Positions 120 through 30,840 of a DNA stretch of 64,000 bases are shown in pieces. Below the pieces are notes generated by a model. It had not been told where the DNA came from, did no database searches, and worked only from the letters and a program-made list of their open reading frames with translations. Made by a program: the position numbers and the translations under genes. This DNA comes from Lentimicrobiaceae bacterium. Lineage in GTDB: Bacteria; Bacteroidota; Bacteroidia; Bacteroidales; F082. The stretch lies in NCBI GenBank assembly GCA_031262365.1, contig JAISHW010000108.1, positions 1 through 64,000 on the forward strand. The letters are read 5' to 3'. Numbering within the stretch: the stretch's first letter is position 1; the number at the start of each line of letters is the position of its first letter.

Positions 120-1205
120 TTAATACCTATCAGTACAATTTAAGTTGGCAAAAGCAATTTTCAAGCGTTCGATAATCGATTTTTCACCTTCGCGAAGCCA
201 CGCACGCGGATCGTAATATTTTTTGTTTGGTGCTTCTTCGCCCGTCGGATTACCTATTTGCGCTTGCAGATAAGCATGATTTTTTTGTTCGAACAAGCGA
301 ACGCCATTCCAAAACGCCCATTGCGTATCGGTATCGATATTCATTTTCACAACACCATAGCCGATAGCTTCTTTGATTTTTTCAGGTTCGGAACCCGATC
401 CGCCGTGAAACACGAAGTTTACAGGATTTTGATGTGTATTGAAATGTTGTTGAATATATTGTTGCGAATTGTGTAAGATAATCGGTTCGAGCTTTACGTT
501 TCCGGGTTTATAAACGCCGTGTACGTTTCCGAACGAAGCGGCAATTGTGAAACGATCGCTTACATTGCTCAACGTTTTGTATGCTTTGGCAACTTCTTCG
601 GGTTGGGTGTATAGGCGCGAGTTTTCGACTTGCGAGTTGTCTACACCGTCTTCTTCGCCTCCGGTAATTCCGAGTTCGATTTCGAGTGTCATGCCGATTT
701 TCGACATACGTTCGAGATAACGTTTGCTTATTTCGAGGTTTTCTTCAAGTGTTTCTTCCGAAAGATCGAGCATGTGTGAACTGAACAACGGTTTGCCGTG
801 TTTAGCAAAATATTTTTCGCCGGCATCTAAAAGTCCGTCGATCCAAGGAAGCAGTTTTTTTGCCGCGTGGTCGGTGTGTAAAATAACCGGAATACCATAC
901 ATTTCGGCTAAAAGATGTACGTGTTTTGCTCCCGAAATAGCACCTGCAATAGCTGCTTTCTGATTGTCGTTCGGAAGACTTTTTCCTGCATAAAACAACG
1001 CTCCACCATTCGAAAATTGAATAATCACGGGCGAATTGACCTCGTGAGCGGCTTCCATAACAGCATTTACTGTATTGGTTCCAACAACGTTGACAGCCGG
1101 AATAGCGTACCGGTTTGTTTTAGCGTTTTTAAATATTTTTTGCAAATCGTCGCCGGCAACAAAGCCCGGTTTGATAATCGTTGAAAGTTTTTCGATCATG
1201 ATCAT
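120..1205 (-). CDS. fbaA: Class II (class IIA) fructose-bisphosphate aldolase
   Basis: Cytoplasmic zinc enzyme that cleaves fructose 1,6-bisphosphate to dihydroxyacetone phosphate and glyceraldehyde 3-phosphate in glycolysis, and runs in reverse in gluconeogenesis. At 361 residues it has the length of the E. coli FbaA subgroup and aligns with that protein end to end by eye. HTDH at residues 110-113 holds the catalytic Asp and a zinc His; ELGITGGEEDG, GNVHG and FHGGSGS supply other metal and phosphate ligands. An alternative start two codons downstream (1199) is equally possible. It is transcribed on its own, from a promoter at the 3' end of the CPBP gene, with an untranslated leader of roughly 120 nt that is shared with the CapD-like gene at 28906. 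Confidence 0.97.
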   Translation of the reverse strand: MIMIEKLSTIIKPGFVAGDDLQKIFKNAKTNRYAIPAVNVVGTNTVNAVMEAAHEVNSPVIIQFSNGGALFYAGKSLPNDNQKAAIAGAISGAKHVHLLAEMYGIPVILHTDHAAKKLLPWIDGLLDAGEKYFAKHGKPLFSSHMLDLSEETLEENLEISKRYLERMSKIGMTLEIELGITGGEEDGVDNSQVENSRLYTQPEEVAKAYKTLSNVSDRFTIAASFGNVHGVYKPGNVKLEPIILHNSQQYIQQHFNTHQNPVNFVFHGGSGSEPEKIKEAIGYGVVKMNIDTDTQWAFWNGVRLFEQKNHAYLQAQIGNPTGEEAPNKKYYDPRAWLREGEKSIIERLKIAFANLNCTDRY

Positions 1206-1258
1206 TCTTTTTTTAATTGTTTTGGTTCAAAATAATTAAAAACACATTTTTTACTTTA

Positions 1259-1337
1259 TTGACAAGAGAAAAACCGCTTGAACCGTTATCAATTTTTCCC
1301 GTTCTCTCAAAGTTTTTATTTTTCAAAGGCAAAGTTA
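1259..1337 (-). promoter_or_regulatory. fbaA promoter and conserved structured 5' leader
   Basis: The -7 box TAACTTTG is at 1337-1330 and overlaps the CPBP stop codon. The following 70 nt match the leader at 28784-28865 in 65 of 77 aligned positions (hand count). On the transcript, GGGAAAAA (1300-1293) can pair with TTTTTCTC (1273-1266) and TTGATAA (1292-1286) with TTGTCAA (1265-1259). The order of the four segments is that of an H-type pseudoknot. The function is unknown; a cis-acting regulatory RNA is inferred. Confidence 0.7.
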
Positions 1338-2273
1338 CAATGGTTTTTCATATATGACAGCTATTTTTACTTGTTTTTTCCAGCCAATATAAAGTAACAA
1401 AGCTGTTGCGAATACGCTCGCAATAAGTAAGAAAATGTTGGAAGTAGCACCAAAATTTTCCATTTCGGTTTGAATATATCCATTGTTGTGTAGCCAATAA
1501 ACAACAACCGCCGCACTGTTGTTGAAAAAATGCATCGTAATCGGTACCCAAATCGATCGCGACCAATAATAGAAATAACCCAAAAACAATCCAAAAACAA
1601 AACGCGGCAGAAAACCGTAAAATTGTATATGTATCGCGCTGAATAAGAAAGCGGTAACAATAATTCCGAGATGTGCATTTTTGAAAATTTTCGACAACAA
1701 AGGTTGCAATACCGACCTAAAAATCAATTCTTCGCCGAGCGCAGGTAATAAACCGATCATGATCAAATTGAAGCATAAAGCGCCGGTACTTTTCTCGCTC
1801 ATAAAACGATCGGTAAGTGCTGTTGCTTGCGTTTCTTTCTCGCGCATCCATTGTTCGAACGAAGCCCACGCATCGGGCAATTTGATGTTTTCGTTCCACT
1901 CGGCTAAAAGACTTGTCGTTGGAAGTGCTATAAACATCAGCAACACACCGCTCAACAGCAATGTAACGTTACGTTCTTTTCGAAACCCTAATTCACGAAT
2001 CGGATTTTCGTTCACAAAAAACGAATACAAAAAAGCCGGAAAAATAAAGATGCCGAGTTGCCCGCAAATTTGAATAATACGCAAGATGTTCAATCCGGAT
2101 TGAGAACTCATATCTTGCATCAAAGCAGGTGTTTCGGTTCCATAACAGAGCATCGAAACAACAATGCCTAACAGCGAGCCAAAAAGCATTCCAAAAAGCA
2201 AAATGCCGACAAAAATAAAAAGTTTTGTAAGTTCGGAAGTTTGCCTGAAAAATAGAAAGAATCGCTGTTTCAT
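1335..2273 (-). CDS. CPBP-family intramembrane metalloprotease (CAAX protease-like)
   Basis: Predicted multi-pass membrane protein of 312 residues with the CPBP/Abi signature: GEELIFR with the paired Glu near residue 181, FSAIH about 30 residues later, and a third motif near the conserved HFFNN. Members include eukaryotic Rce1-type prenyl-protein proteases and bacterial immunity or processing proteins; the substrate cannot be read from sequence. The start was placed at the internal ATG at 2273, because the upstream extension from 2351 is basic and low in complexity, and the next residues (MKQRFF) begin the first hydrophobic segment normally. The aldolase promoter overlaps its 3' end. Confidence 0.85.
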   Translation of the reverse strand: MKQRFFLFFRQTSELTKLFIFVGILLFGMLFGSLLGIVVSMLCYGTETPALMQDMSSQSGLNILRIIQICGQLGIFIFPAFLYSFFVNENPIRELGFRKERNVTLLLSGVLLMFIALPTTSLLAEWNENIKLPDAWASFEQWMREKETQATALTDRFMSEKSTGALCFNLIMIGLLPALGEELIFRSVLQPLLSKIFKNAHLGIIVTAFLFSAIHIQFYGFLPRFVFGLFLGYFYYWSRSIWVPITMHFFNNSAAVVVYWLHNNGYIQTEMENFGATSNIFLLIASVFATALLLYIGWKKQVKIAVIYEKPL

Positions 2274-5430: not shown

Positions 5431-5504
5431 GGTCCTATAGCTCAGTTGGTTAGAGCAACTGACTCATAATCAGTAGGTCCTAGGTTCAAGTCCTAGTGGG
5501 ACCA
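5431..5504 (+). tRNA. tRNA with CAU anticodon (tRNA-Ile2 or elongator tRNA-Met)
   Basis: A complete cloverleaf can be drawn: acceptor GGTCCTA / TGGGACC with one T-G wobble, D arm GCTC/GAGC, anticodon stem ACTGA/TCAGT around loop CTCATAA, and T stem CTAGG/CCTAG with loop TTCAAGT. The 3' CCA is not encoded. The anticodon is CAU. The context GACTCATAATC and the T loop resemble the E. coli minor isoleucine tRNA (lysidine-modified) more than elongator Met, so tRNA-Ile2 is preferred but not proven. It is not an initiator, because the anticodon stem lacks the three G-C pairs. Confidence 0.93.
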
Positions 5505-27149: not shown

Positions 27150-27747
27150 AGAAAACCGAAAATTCTTGATCAAATATTGTTTCGATAAAATAATTGCTTT
27201 TTTGAGCTTGATTTTATTAAGTCCCGTGTTGTTCGTTATTGCTGTAATGATCAAACTGAAAATGCCCGACGGACCAATAATTTTTCGTCAAGAACGCATT
27301 GGAAAAGACGCTAAACCATTCAAAATTTACAAATTTCGAACAATGATAATGCAACACGATCATTCGCCGGTTTCTGTTTTGGGCGAAAGTCGTATAACGC
27401 CTTTTGGTGCTTTTCTGAGACGTTACAAACTGGATTGTTTGCCCGAATTTTGGAATGTTTTGCTTGGCGAGATGAGTTTGGTCGGTCCACGACCCGATGT
27501 GCCCGGCTACGCCGATAAATTGGAAGGAGAAAACCGCCGAATTTTAGAAATGAAACCGGGAATCACGGGTCAGGCAACATTGAAATACAAAAACGAAGAA
27601 AAAATTTTGGCGCAACAAGACAATCCACGTGTTTACAACGATACATACATTTATCCCGATAAAGTTCGGATAAATTTAGAATACGTCCGAAATTGGCGTT
27701 TCTCGACCGACTTGAAAATTATTTACTACACACTTTTTTCGAAATGA
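27136..27747 (+). CDS. Monotopic phosphoglycosyl transferase (bacterial sugar transferase family)
   Basis: A 203-residue small PGT of the PglC/WcaJ-core type, which moves a sugar-phosphate from a nucleotide sugar to undecaprenyl phosphate to start a surface polysaccharide or glycan. It has a re-entrant membrane helix at about residues 17-40, then IIFRQERIGKDAKPFKIYKFRTM, GEMSLVGPRPDVPGYAD and KPGITGQATLKY. The catalytic Asp-Glu dyad position reads LDCLPEF: Asp100 is present but the following Glu is Cys101, which is unusual. The start is GTG at 27136, inside the previous gene. Its stop overlaps the exosortase ATG (ATGA). Confidence 0.92.
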   Translation: MAKNKENRKFLIKYCFDKIIAFLSLILLSPVLFVIAVMIKLKMPDGPIIFRQERIGKDAKPFKIYKFRTMIMQHDHSPVSVLGESRITPFGAFLRRYKLDCLPEFWNVLLGEMSLVGPRPDVPGYADKLEGENRRILEMKPGITGQATLKYKNEEKILAQQDNPRVYNDTYIYPDKVRINLEYVRNWRFSTDLKIIYYTLFSK

Positions 27748-28361
27748 AAAACTTTAAAAAACACCTACAGAATACGCGAAACACATTCGATAAACTGTAT
27801 GCCAATCGTTTTTATCAGCCCTTGGTCGATGTGTCGCTTTTTGCCATATTGATTTTCAGTTTTCATTTTTTATACCATGCTTGGATAAATGTCAATTTCT
27901 ATCCGTTTCGAGCGCAAATAGATTGGTTGTTTCGCGAAAATTCGGCTTTGCTGTTTGATCAAAGTTGTTGGGTTTTGCAGCATCTTTTCGGAATCGACAT
28001 TGTTACACACGAACAAACGATACACATTTTGAGCAATCAAAATCAGATCACTTACGTCGAAGTAGCTCCCGAATGTACCAGCCTGAAACAATGGATGCAT
28101 TGGCTATTTTTAATGCTGTTATTTCCGGGTCCTTGGAAACACAAACTTTGGTATATTCCTTTAGGCTTGATTGTCATACAATTTGTAAATGTAATCCGCA
28201 TTGTCGGACTCTCGTTGTTATTAATTCCGTACCCAAATTCTTTTGAATTTTTGCACAATTATATTTTTAAAACATTCTTTTATTTCATGATTTTCTTGAT
28301 GTGGCTCATTTGGGTCGAATGTTTTGTACATCGAAAAAAGAAAGTAATTCATACCTCATAA
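27744..28361 (+). CDS. Exosortase/archaeosortase-family membrane protein
   Basis: A 205-residue multi-pass protein with the three conserved residues of the family: Cys111 in APECTSLKQW, Arg152 in NVIRIVG and His171 in FLHNYIF, each at the edge of a predicted membrane helix. Exosortases cleave a C-terminal sorting signal and hand the protein to an exopolysaccharide or lipid. The ATG at 27744 was taken as the start; 17 further codons upstream lie inside the transferase gene. It cannot be assigned to a named Xrt subtype by eye. No substrate with an obvious sorting signal was found in the window. Confidence 0.85.
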   Translation: MKNFKKHLQNTRNTFDKLYANRFYQPLVDVSLFAILIFSFHFLYHAWINVNFYPFRAQIDWLFRENSALLFDQSCWVLQHLFGIDIVTHEQTIHILSNQNQITYVEVAPECTSLKQWMHWLFLMLLFPGPWKHKLWYIPLGLIVIQFVNVIRIVGLSLLLIPYPNSFEFLHNYIFKTFFYFMIFLMWLIWVECFVHRKKKVIHTS

Positions 28362-28535: not shown

Positions 28536-28655
28536 GGGCTTCTAAAAATCCCAATCTCTGCGTTACGCTTCTTCAACAAAATGCTCATTTACGCCAAGTA
28601 AACGCCGCTTTTGTTTCAGTCGCAAGCCTTGATATTGAAATTTTTAGAAGCCCCC
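28536..28655 (+). repeat. Dispersed 120-bp repeat, copy B
   Basis: The best-preserved copy. Its ends form a 14-bp perfect inverted repeat, GGGCTTCTAAAAAT and its complement. The inside is nearly identical to copy A and about three-quarters identical to copy C. No transposase is encoded, so it behaves like a MITE or REP-type element. Confidence 0.88.
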
Positions 28656-28783
28656 TGATAAAGATTTTAGCATTTAAATGTTATGATAGACGCTCAAATT
28701 CTTAAAAATTTTTTTAAAAATATGTAACTTGCTGATATATATGAAAAATATTTTAATATTTATGTATACATGAAAAAATAATG

Positions 28784-28865
28784 TACCTTTGCCTTTGAAA
28801 AATAAGAAAAACTTTCGTGGAACGAGAAAAATTGATAACGCTTCAAATAATCTTTTTCTTATCAA
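28784..28865 (+). promoter_or_regulatory. capD-like gene promoter and conserved structured 5' leader
   Basis: The -7 box TACCTTTG (28784-28791) is followed by a leader that matches the aldolase leader at 65 of 77 aligned bases. GAAAAA (28826-28831) can pair with TTTTTC (28853-28858), and TTGATAA (28832-28838) with TTATCAA (28859-28865), giving H-type pseudoknot order. The untranslated region totals about 108 nt before the ATG at 28906. Confidence 0.7.
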
Positions 28866-28905
28866 AAAACAAACTTTTAGACACACCAAAAAACGTTTTA
28901 CATAA

Positions 28906-30840
28906 ATGAAAAAACAAAACAAAGGACTTATTAACGCTATAAAACAGCGATTCTTCAATCGATTCTTGCCTATTTGGGCAGTATTGCTTTTTGACATTAC
29001 TTCTGTATTTTTACTGTTTTATTTTACTGTTTTATTATTACATAATTTTGGAGACGTAGAATTCGATAAGATTAAAATATTATTTTGGGCACTATTGGCT
29101 TCTACTGTCTATCTGATCTCGTTTCTTATTTTTAAACCCTATTCGGGCATCTTACGACACACAGAAATAAAAGATACTATAAAAATCTTTATGGCTACAA
29201 CCTGTAGTTTCATAATTTTATTGATAATTGTTGCCATAAATGATTTTTTATTAAAAAGCCCTGATTGGATTTTACAACTTTCGATAATTATCATCCATTA
29301 TGTTACGACACTCTCCTTTTTAACCACAAGTCGTCTTTTAATAAAAATCATTCATTATTATTTTTTAATAAAAGAAAGCGAAATCAAATGCAATACCCTC
29401 ATTTTTGGGGCTGGTTCATCTGGTTTAATTGCACTTAAAGCATTGCAACAAAACAAAAAAAATCAATTTAAAGTAGTTGCTTTTCTTGACGACAACAAAG
29501 AAAAAGTCGGTAAAAAATTCCAAGACATCCCAATCTTATTCCCTCGCGAAGCTTTAAATGAAAAATACATAAAAAAACACAAAATAGAACAAGTAATTAT
29601 TGCAATTGAAAAATTAAGCCTCACACGTAAACAAAAATTTATCGATAAAGCGTTATTGTTAGGATTGCAAATAAAAATTGTTCCTCCGATCGAAAACTGG
29701 ATTAATAATGAATTGACGGCGACACAATTACATGAAATAAAAATAGAAGACCTATTAGGTCGCGATCAAATAAAACTGAATAATGAAATCATCGCTCAAG
29801 AAATAGAAAATAGTGTCGTAATGGTAACCGGTGCCGCCGGATCGATTGGTTCGGAAATTGCCCGGCAAATAGTAGGTTATAATCCGGCAAAAGTAATTTT
29901 ACTTGATCAGGCTGAGTCGCCTTTATACGAACTCCAATTAGATTTACAAAACAAAAAAAAATACAAATTAGTTAGTGATCGAATCGTCTGCGTTGTAGCA
30001 AACATAAAAGACAAAACCAGAATGGAAGCACTATTTTGCTTATACAAACCGCAGTTGATTTATCACGCAGCAGCATACAAGCACGTTCCGCTCATGGAAA
30101 ACTATCCGTATGAAGCACTAAAAGTCAATGTTTTCGGCACAAAAACACTTGTCGACCTTTCGTTGAAATACAACGTAAAGAAATTTATTATGATTTCGAC
30201 CGATAAAGCTGTAAATCCGACAAGCGTAATGGGAGCAAGCAAACGTATTGCCGAAATCTACGCACAATCACGCAATAACGAAACAACACGCTTTATTACT
30301 ACCCGATTTGGAAACGTTTTAGGTTCAAACGGATCGGTCATTCCCATTTTTAAAAAACAAATTGCATCTGGAGGTCCTGTAACAATAACGCATAAAGACA
30401 TCACGCGATTTTTTATGACGATTCCGGAAGCCTGTAATCTTGTTCTCGAAGCCGGAACAATGGGTAAAGACAACGAAATTTTTATTTTCGACATGGGATC
30501 GCCCGTTCGAATATATGACTTAGCCGAAAAAATGATTCGACTTTCGGGATTAGAACCGAACAAAGACATTCAAATCATCGAAACAGGATTGCGTCCGGGC
30601 GAAAAACTTTATGAAGAGCTTTTGACCGAAACAGAAAAAGAAAATATGCTGCCAACATACCACCCTAAAATCATGCGCGCAAAAACCCAAAAACACGATA
30701 TAAACGCGATAAGCAACCTCTTTCTTGAGCTCCACGAAGCACTCGTTTCTTGCGACGAAACACGCATCGTAGCAAAAATGAAAGAAATTGTTTCCGAATA
30801 CATTAGCAACAACAGCTCTTTTTGCTCTTTGGATAAATAA
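28906..30840 (+). CDS. CapD/FlaA1-like membrane nucleotide-sugar 4,6-dehydratase
   Basis: A 644-residue polysaccharide-biosynthesis enzyme. About four membrane helices come first (residues 20-150), then a CoA-binding-like Rossmann segment (GAGSSG near 165), then an extended SDR domain with VTGAAGSIGSEIA near 305, HAAAYKHVPLMENYP, and STDKAVNPTSVMGASKR. In this motif Met replaces the usual catalytic Tyr, as is normal in CapD/PglF-type UDP-GlcNAc dehydratases. The product is probably a UDP-keto-deoxysugar feeding surface-glycan synthesis. Its leader is shared with the aldolase gene. Confidence 0.92.
   Translation: MKKQNKGLINAIKQRFFNRFLPIWAVLLFDITSVFLLFYFTVLLLHNFGDVEFDKIKILFWALLASTVYLISFLIFKPYSGILRHTEIKDTIKIFMATTCSFIILLIIVAINDFLLKSPDWILQLSIIIIHYVTTLSFLTTSRLLIKIIHYYFLIKESEIKCNTLIFGAGSSGLIALKALQQNKKNQFKVVAFLDDNKEKVGKKFQDIPILFPREALNEKYIKKHKIEQVIIAIEKLSLTRKQKFIDKALLLGLQIKIVPPIENWINNELTATQLHEIKIEDLLGRDQIKLNNEIIAQEIENSVVMVTGAAGSIGSEIARQIVGYNPAKVILLDQAESPLYELQLDLQNKKKYKLVSDRIVCVVANIKDKTRMEALFCLYKPQLIYHAAAYKHVPLMENYPYEALKVNVFGTKTLVDLSLKYNVKKFIMISTDKAVNPTSVMGASKRIAEIYAQSRNNETTRFITTRFGNVLGSNGSVIPIFKKQIASGGPVTITHKDITRFFMTIPEACNLVLEAGTMGKDNEIFIFDMGSPVRIYDLAEKMIRLSGLEPNKDIQIIETGLRPGEKLYEELLTETEKENMLPTYHPKIMRAKTQKHDINAISNLFLELHEALVSCDETRIVAKMKEIVSEYISNNSSFCSLDK

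Follow-up and report, generated by a model that had tools for sequence, protein, structure and literature searches.

A candidate promoter-leader cassette dispersed before unrelated genes in one Bacteroidota lineage

A repeated stretch of about 115 bases, comprising a promoter core and the untranslated beginning of the transcript, lies before at least nine unrelated genes in the genome of a Lentimicrobiaceae bacterium. A preliminary description of a 64,000-nucleotide stretch of this genome (the window) had presented the shared leader as belonging to two genes, those for an aldolase and a CapD-like protein, and whilst it was correct that a common promoter core and leader stand ahead of unrelated genes, the genome contains nine full copies and not two. 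Sequence comparison points to a lineage-specific, dispersed promoter-leader cassette that resembles a mobile promoter, a reading that is given a probability of roughly 0.6. It has the look of a ready-made gene switch that was copied recently, and a role as a sugar-sensing RNA is not proven.

Copies in the window and in the genome

Two of the full copies lie in the window. The fba copy occupies positions 1223..1337 on the minus strand, where the -7 box TAACTTTG and the leader give an R1 match of 100.1 bits over model positions 1-116 (alignment A3), and downstream of it is fba itself (120..1205, minus strand), encoding a class II fructose-bisphosphate aldolase of 361 amino acids (PF01116, E 9.2e-85). 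The capD copy, at 28784..28879 on the plus strand, consists of the -7 box TACCTTTG and the leader, gives an R1 match of 67.5 bits over model positions 1-102 and is without the conserved 3' end ATTATCTTGAACC. The gene downstream of this copy (28906..30840, plus strand) encodes a CapD-like nucleotide-sugar dehydratase of 644 amino acids (PF02719, E 2.6e-117), and upstream of the CapD-like gene is an exosortase-like gene (27693-28361; PF09721, E 7.6e-8). A tRNA gene is found elsewhere in the window, at 5431-5504 (Rfam RF00005, 76 bits).

The match first reported between 28784-28865 on the plus strand and 1337-1259 on the minus strand, 65 of 77 bases, becomes 67 identities in 78 columns on recounting, and the similarity of the two leaders is beyond chance, with none of 200 dinucleotide-preserving shuffles scoring as well. 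The core of the shared segment stands as originally drawn, but its 3' limit has to be moved, since the fba unit (1337-1223) runs on to CTTGAACC, an end that recurs with small changes in seven copies outside the window and is absent from the capD copy. Nor is the -7 box the exact start that it was taken to be, as 34 of the 38 bases before it at fba (1338..1375, minus strand) are identical to those of the copy before gldH. The coding sides were said not to match, and the 150 bp downstream of the fba and capD copies are indeed at chance level; the upstream sides were said not to match either, yet within the 150 bp on their upstream side the two copies align locally, in a different register (0/200 shuffles). 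The last codons of the CAAX-protease gene upstream of fba are formed by cassette-like DNA shared with the gldH copy (1335-1375), and the stop codon of this gene, TAA, sits inside the fba -7 box. The encoding of a gene end by cassette-like DNA suggests that the cassette arrived secondarily at fba.

The whole genome (2.23 Mb in 119 contigs) was searched with a pattern, BLAST and a profile, which returned nine full copies, each about 96-118 bp long and scoring 67-101 bits, after which the scores drop. Outside the window, full copies precede genes for a prolyl oligopeptidase (pop, contig C83), the Usp protein UspA (usp, C43), an outer-membrane barrel protein (omp, C107), the lipoprotein GldH (gldH, C3), SodB (sod, C30), a DUF4878 lipoprotein (duf, C118) and a PEMT/ICMT-like methyltransferase (pemt, C27). 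Every one of the nine is in sense and immediately precedes a different gene, which suggests that the copies have been kept for driving or modulating the gene downstream. The conserved end falls about 11-28 nt ahead of the ATG in eight of them, with the capD copy similarly placed. Partial copies, mainly of the 3' half, precede fabD (C77) and glmS (C85), and a decayed orphan copy on C41 lies between divergent genes, ahead of another promoter and with no adjoining coding start.

The consensus runs from the -7 box, TAACTTTG, through an A-rich start, CTTTGAGAGAACG, GRGAAAAATTGATAACGGTTCAAGCGGTTTTTCTCTTATCAAAAAAG and an A-rich spacer to TTTTTAATTATCTTGAACCA. The leader is A/U-rich and some 110-140 nt long, and its end, TTTTTAATTATCTTGAACC, lies 11-28 nt ahead of the start codon. 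TAnnTTTG is found at -7 in eight of the nine copies, the pemt copy deviating with TAACGTTA, and by inspection TTTG or TTG lies about 19-20 bp further upstream in several, including usp, sod and gldH. The predicted promoter is of the housekeeping Bacteroidota type, with TTG/TTTG at -33 and, at -7, the TAnnTTTG that is a feature of sigma-ABfr promoters. An upstream block designated type I reaches about -90 in pop, duf, gldH, pemt and capD, in the last of which it occupies 28699..28783 on the plus strand and is tied to the other four by shuffle tests (p 0-0.01) and identities; about 38 bp of type I are present at fba. A different block, type II, reaches about -41 in usp and sod, and the omp copy has no upstream block in common with the others. 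The 150 bp downstream of the copies are unrelated to one another. A type I block with a -7 box and no leader core precedes a HisKA-domain gene on contig C115 (L175, 250-420), where a 120-bp MITE-like repeat adjoins this promoter on its upstream side.

The leader as RNA

The complementary segments GAAAAA/TTTTTC (S1) and TTGATAA/TTRTCAA (S2) are present in both the fba and the capD leader, as had been claimed, and were interpreted as an H-type pseudoknot or switch that could tie the aldolase and capsule genes to a common signal. S2 is fully paired, with G-U allowed, in five of the nine copies, but pop, omp, gldH and duf break it, and although 58 of 63 S2 cells are paired, pairing is kept in only 5/10 varied cells, near the random-transition expectation. 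Inspection of the sequence indicates that the S1 and S2 strands abut, with linkers of 0-2 nt, so that there is next to no loop sequence with which to span the stems of a pseudoknot. Moreover, a third complementary pair, S3 (GGTTCAAG/CTTGAACC), brings the order to a-b-c-a'-b'-c', excludes both S1 and S2 and, as a crossing pair, fits as well as they do; it too is near the random-transition expectation, with pairing kept in 4/10 varied cells. Shuffle tests give p values of about 0.03-0.05 for S2 and S3 (0.04 for S2), uncorrected for relatedness and of low power with nine related copies, and S2 pairing does not clearly exceed that of shuffles. The folding energies of eight of the nine leaders are not clearly below those of shuffles (z +0.5 to -1.4), the remaining one reaching -1.95. 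The supposed link between sugar-phosphate flux and surface glycans is dropped because the other targets, SodB, UspA, an outer-membrane protein, GldH, a peptidase and others, lie outside sugars. The pseudoknot is in consequence considered very unlikely, and a leader common to two genes alone would be no evidence of a riboswitch.

A simple hairpin in the leader is possible. For the nine leaders RNAalifold models a single 11-bp hairpin, H1, in which GRGAAAAAUUG pairs with CGGUUUUUCUC and which includes S1. In the capD leader H1 (GAGAAAAATTG...TAATCTTTTTC, an extended S1) and S2 (TTGATAA...TTATCAA) fall within 28825..28865 on the plus strand, as placed from the RNAalifold consensus and the pair counts. 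On the hand alignment 92 of 98 H1 cells are paired, and 18 of the 24 varied cells still pair; shuffling the arms among the copies leaves the pairing nearly equal (p ~0.15, relatedness uncorrected). A leader peptide starting at a conserved TTG was also considered and rejected on inspection, with changes at all codon positions and frames that differ between copies.

It is conceivable, if doubtful, that the leader is a lineage-specific cis-regulatory RNA, in which H1 or alternative structures would respond to a ligand, a protein or a small RNA and so co-regulate a regulon of stress, envelope and central-metabolism genes. Such a role would suit the placement of all nine full copies in sense just ahead of start codons, the presence of the same leader behind three different upstream types, the largely intact pairing of H1 and the conservation of the 3' end even at glmS and fabD. 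Set against this are the shuffle-like energies, the failure of H1 to exceed shuffled arms, the poor retention of S2 and S3 in varied cells and the lack of a pathway common to the target genes. No family in Rfam 15 matches the cassette; the single match obtained at a permissive E-value lies on the opposite strand and was taken as chance. Moreover, identity is about 79-90% in the leader versus about 76-90% in the upstream DNA, and on these sequence identities the leader appears to be about as conserved as the upstream DNA and not clearly more so, a similarity of divergence that fits joint copying and requires no extra constraint on the RNA. A more ambitious version, in which copies of the cassette came to precede a dozen genes of the envelope, stress response and central metabolism within one Bacteroidota lineage to form a new leader-RNA regulon controlled via the leader by one trans-acting factor, is unlikely. 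That the C41 orphan might give rise to a trans-acting small RNA complementary to the 3' end of the leaders is speculation, and no promoter was seen by eye on either strand of the orphan.

Proposed spread of the cassette within one lineage

Recurrence of the leader had been proposed as a test, and the leader does recur before unrelated genes, but inside its own genome only. A sequence model run on the family's 172 other genomes found no comparable copy, matches there scoring 17-23 bits, and no other copy in an order sample of 393 genomes that includes its own, where the best other match scores 27.8 bits. These weak matches were dismissed as noise, those inspected lying inside or overlapping coding sequences or being without leader context. 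The preliminary description had made its structure stand or fall by covarying copies in related genomes; none occurs in the family and order samples, and on present data it falls. A degenerate pattern applied to GTDB genome contigs, with the genome itself masked, retrieved four records, all unrelated, and the cassette was not found in viral contigs, plasmids or phages. The fba and sod orthologues of family and order members carry unrelated leaders. The cassette would consequently have spread later than the split from other genera, with the genus represented by one sampled genome.

The 120-bp MITE-like repeat, whose ends are inverted (GGGCTTCTAAAAAT...ATTTTTAGAAGCCC), is also found in the window at 28540-28660, just upstream of the capD cassette. 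It has at least 40 copies in the genome with 93-98% identity, many of them at contig ends, indicating that repeat mobilisation has been active in this lineage. The proximity of this other repeat to the capD copy and to the C115 promoter, together with the inverted recurrence of the cassette's 3' end at pemt (17/20), would fit a cassette that is itself a non-autonomous transposon (MITE) with a chance outward promoter. This is quite improbable, however, since inverted copies of the 3' end occur at only 2/10 copies and at different positions, terminal inverted repeats are not common to the other copies, the 5' edge is variable and no full copy is reversed relative to its gene. The two inverted 3'-end copies, at about 2569 of L083 (C27; 17/20) and at 2945-2963 of L081 (C41; 16/20), flank the pemt promoter-leader and the C41 orphan and are possibly recombination sites.

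In the dispersed-cassette reading the unit would be a canonical sigma-ABfr-type promoter with its leader, copies of which would have been placed before unrelated genes during the history of a genus-level lineage, presumably through recombination or short-repeat mobilisation, either taking over the native promoters or adding to them. Where a copy was retained, the gene would be transcribed from the same promoter with the same 5' end, and genes with retained copies probably share an expression level and a growth response. Co-regulation of the cassette genes is possible. The cassette appears to have spread by copying, and the reading is supported by the modularity evident in the 3'-half copies, the C115 promoter without a leader and the decayed C41 copy. 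The cassette has neither a recognisable transposase nor consistent terminal inverted repeats, and no target-site duplications could be made out, empty sites being absent from close relatives and upstream regions within the family too diverged for comparison. Two further observations count against this explanation: the occurrence of all full copies in sense before genes calls for selection, so the leader could be functional, and the three upstream types that precede the same leader are not explained by a single copied unit alone.

If the dispersed-cassette reading is right, it provides a clear natural instance of regulatory rewiring, in which a promoter and its 5' leader were copied together before core genes, including those for aldolase, superoxide dismutase and a universal stress protein, in a single lineage. 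How fast a regulon forms, and whether genes come under shared control by receiving a copied leader, would then be open to direct tests.

Comparison with known systems

The sigma-ABfr promoters of Bacteroides contain TAnnTTTG and TTTG elements, and the 5' UTRs of B. thetaiotaomicron have a median length of 32 nt (PMC7366714). The cassette resembles these promoters in the TAnnTTTG at -7 of most copies and in the TTG or TTTG some 19-20 bp upstream in several, whereas ordinary sigma-ABfr promoters are not expected to have a leader in common. BrickBuilt of Porphyromonas gingivalis is a MITE-like element with promoter activity, 23-nt internal repeats and bidirectional promoters (PMC4596501). Like BrickBuilt, the cassette is a short intergenic repeat of the Bacteroidales with a predicted promoter and a narrow host range; unlike it, the cassette is one-directional, ends just before start codons and is without consistent terminal inverted repeats.

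The concept that comes closest to the cassette is the putative mobile promoter, promoter-region DNA that is similar before non-homologous genes of one genome and occurs across genomes; BrickBuilt is a related repeat. Putative mobile promoters were reportedly described by Matus-Garcia et al. in 2012, together with the notion of 'promoter propagation'. Passages of PMC8049555 and PMC4596501 cite that work. The cassette departs from such elements in that it was not found across the genomes, plasmids and phages searched, and in that its conserved part is mainly a transcribed leader, but it has in common with them homologous promoter DNA before non-homologous genes in one genome.
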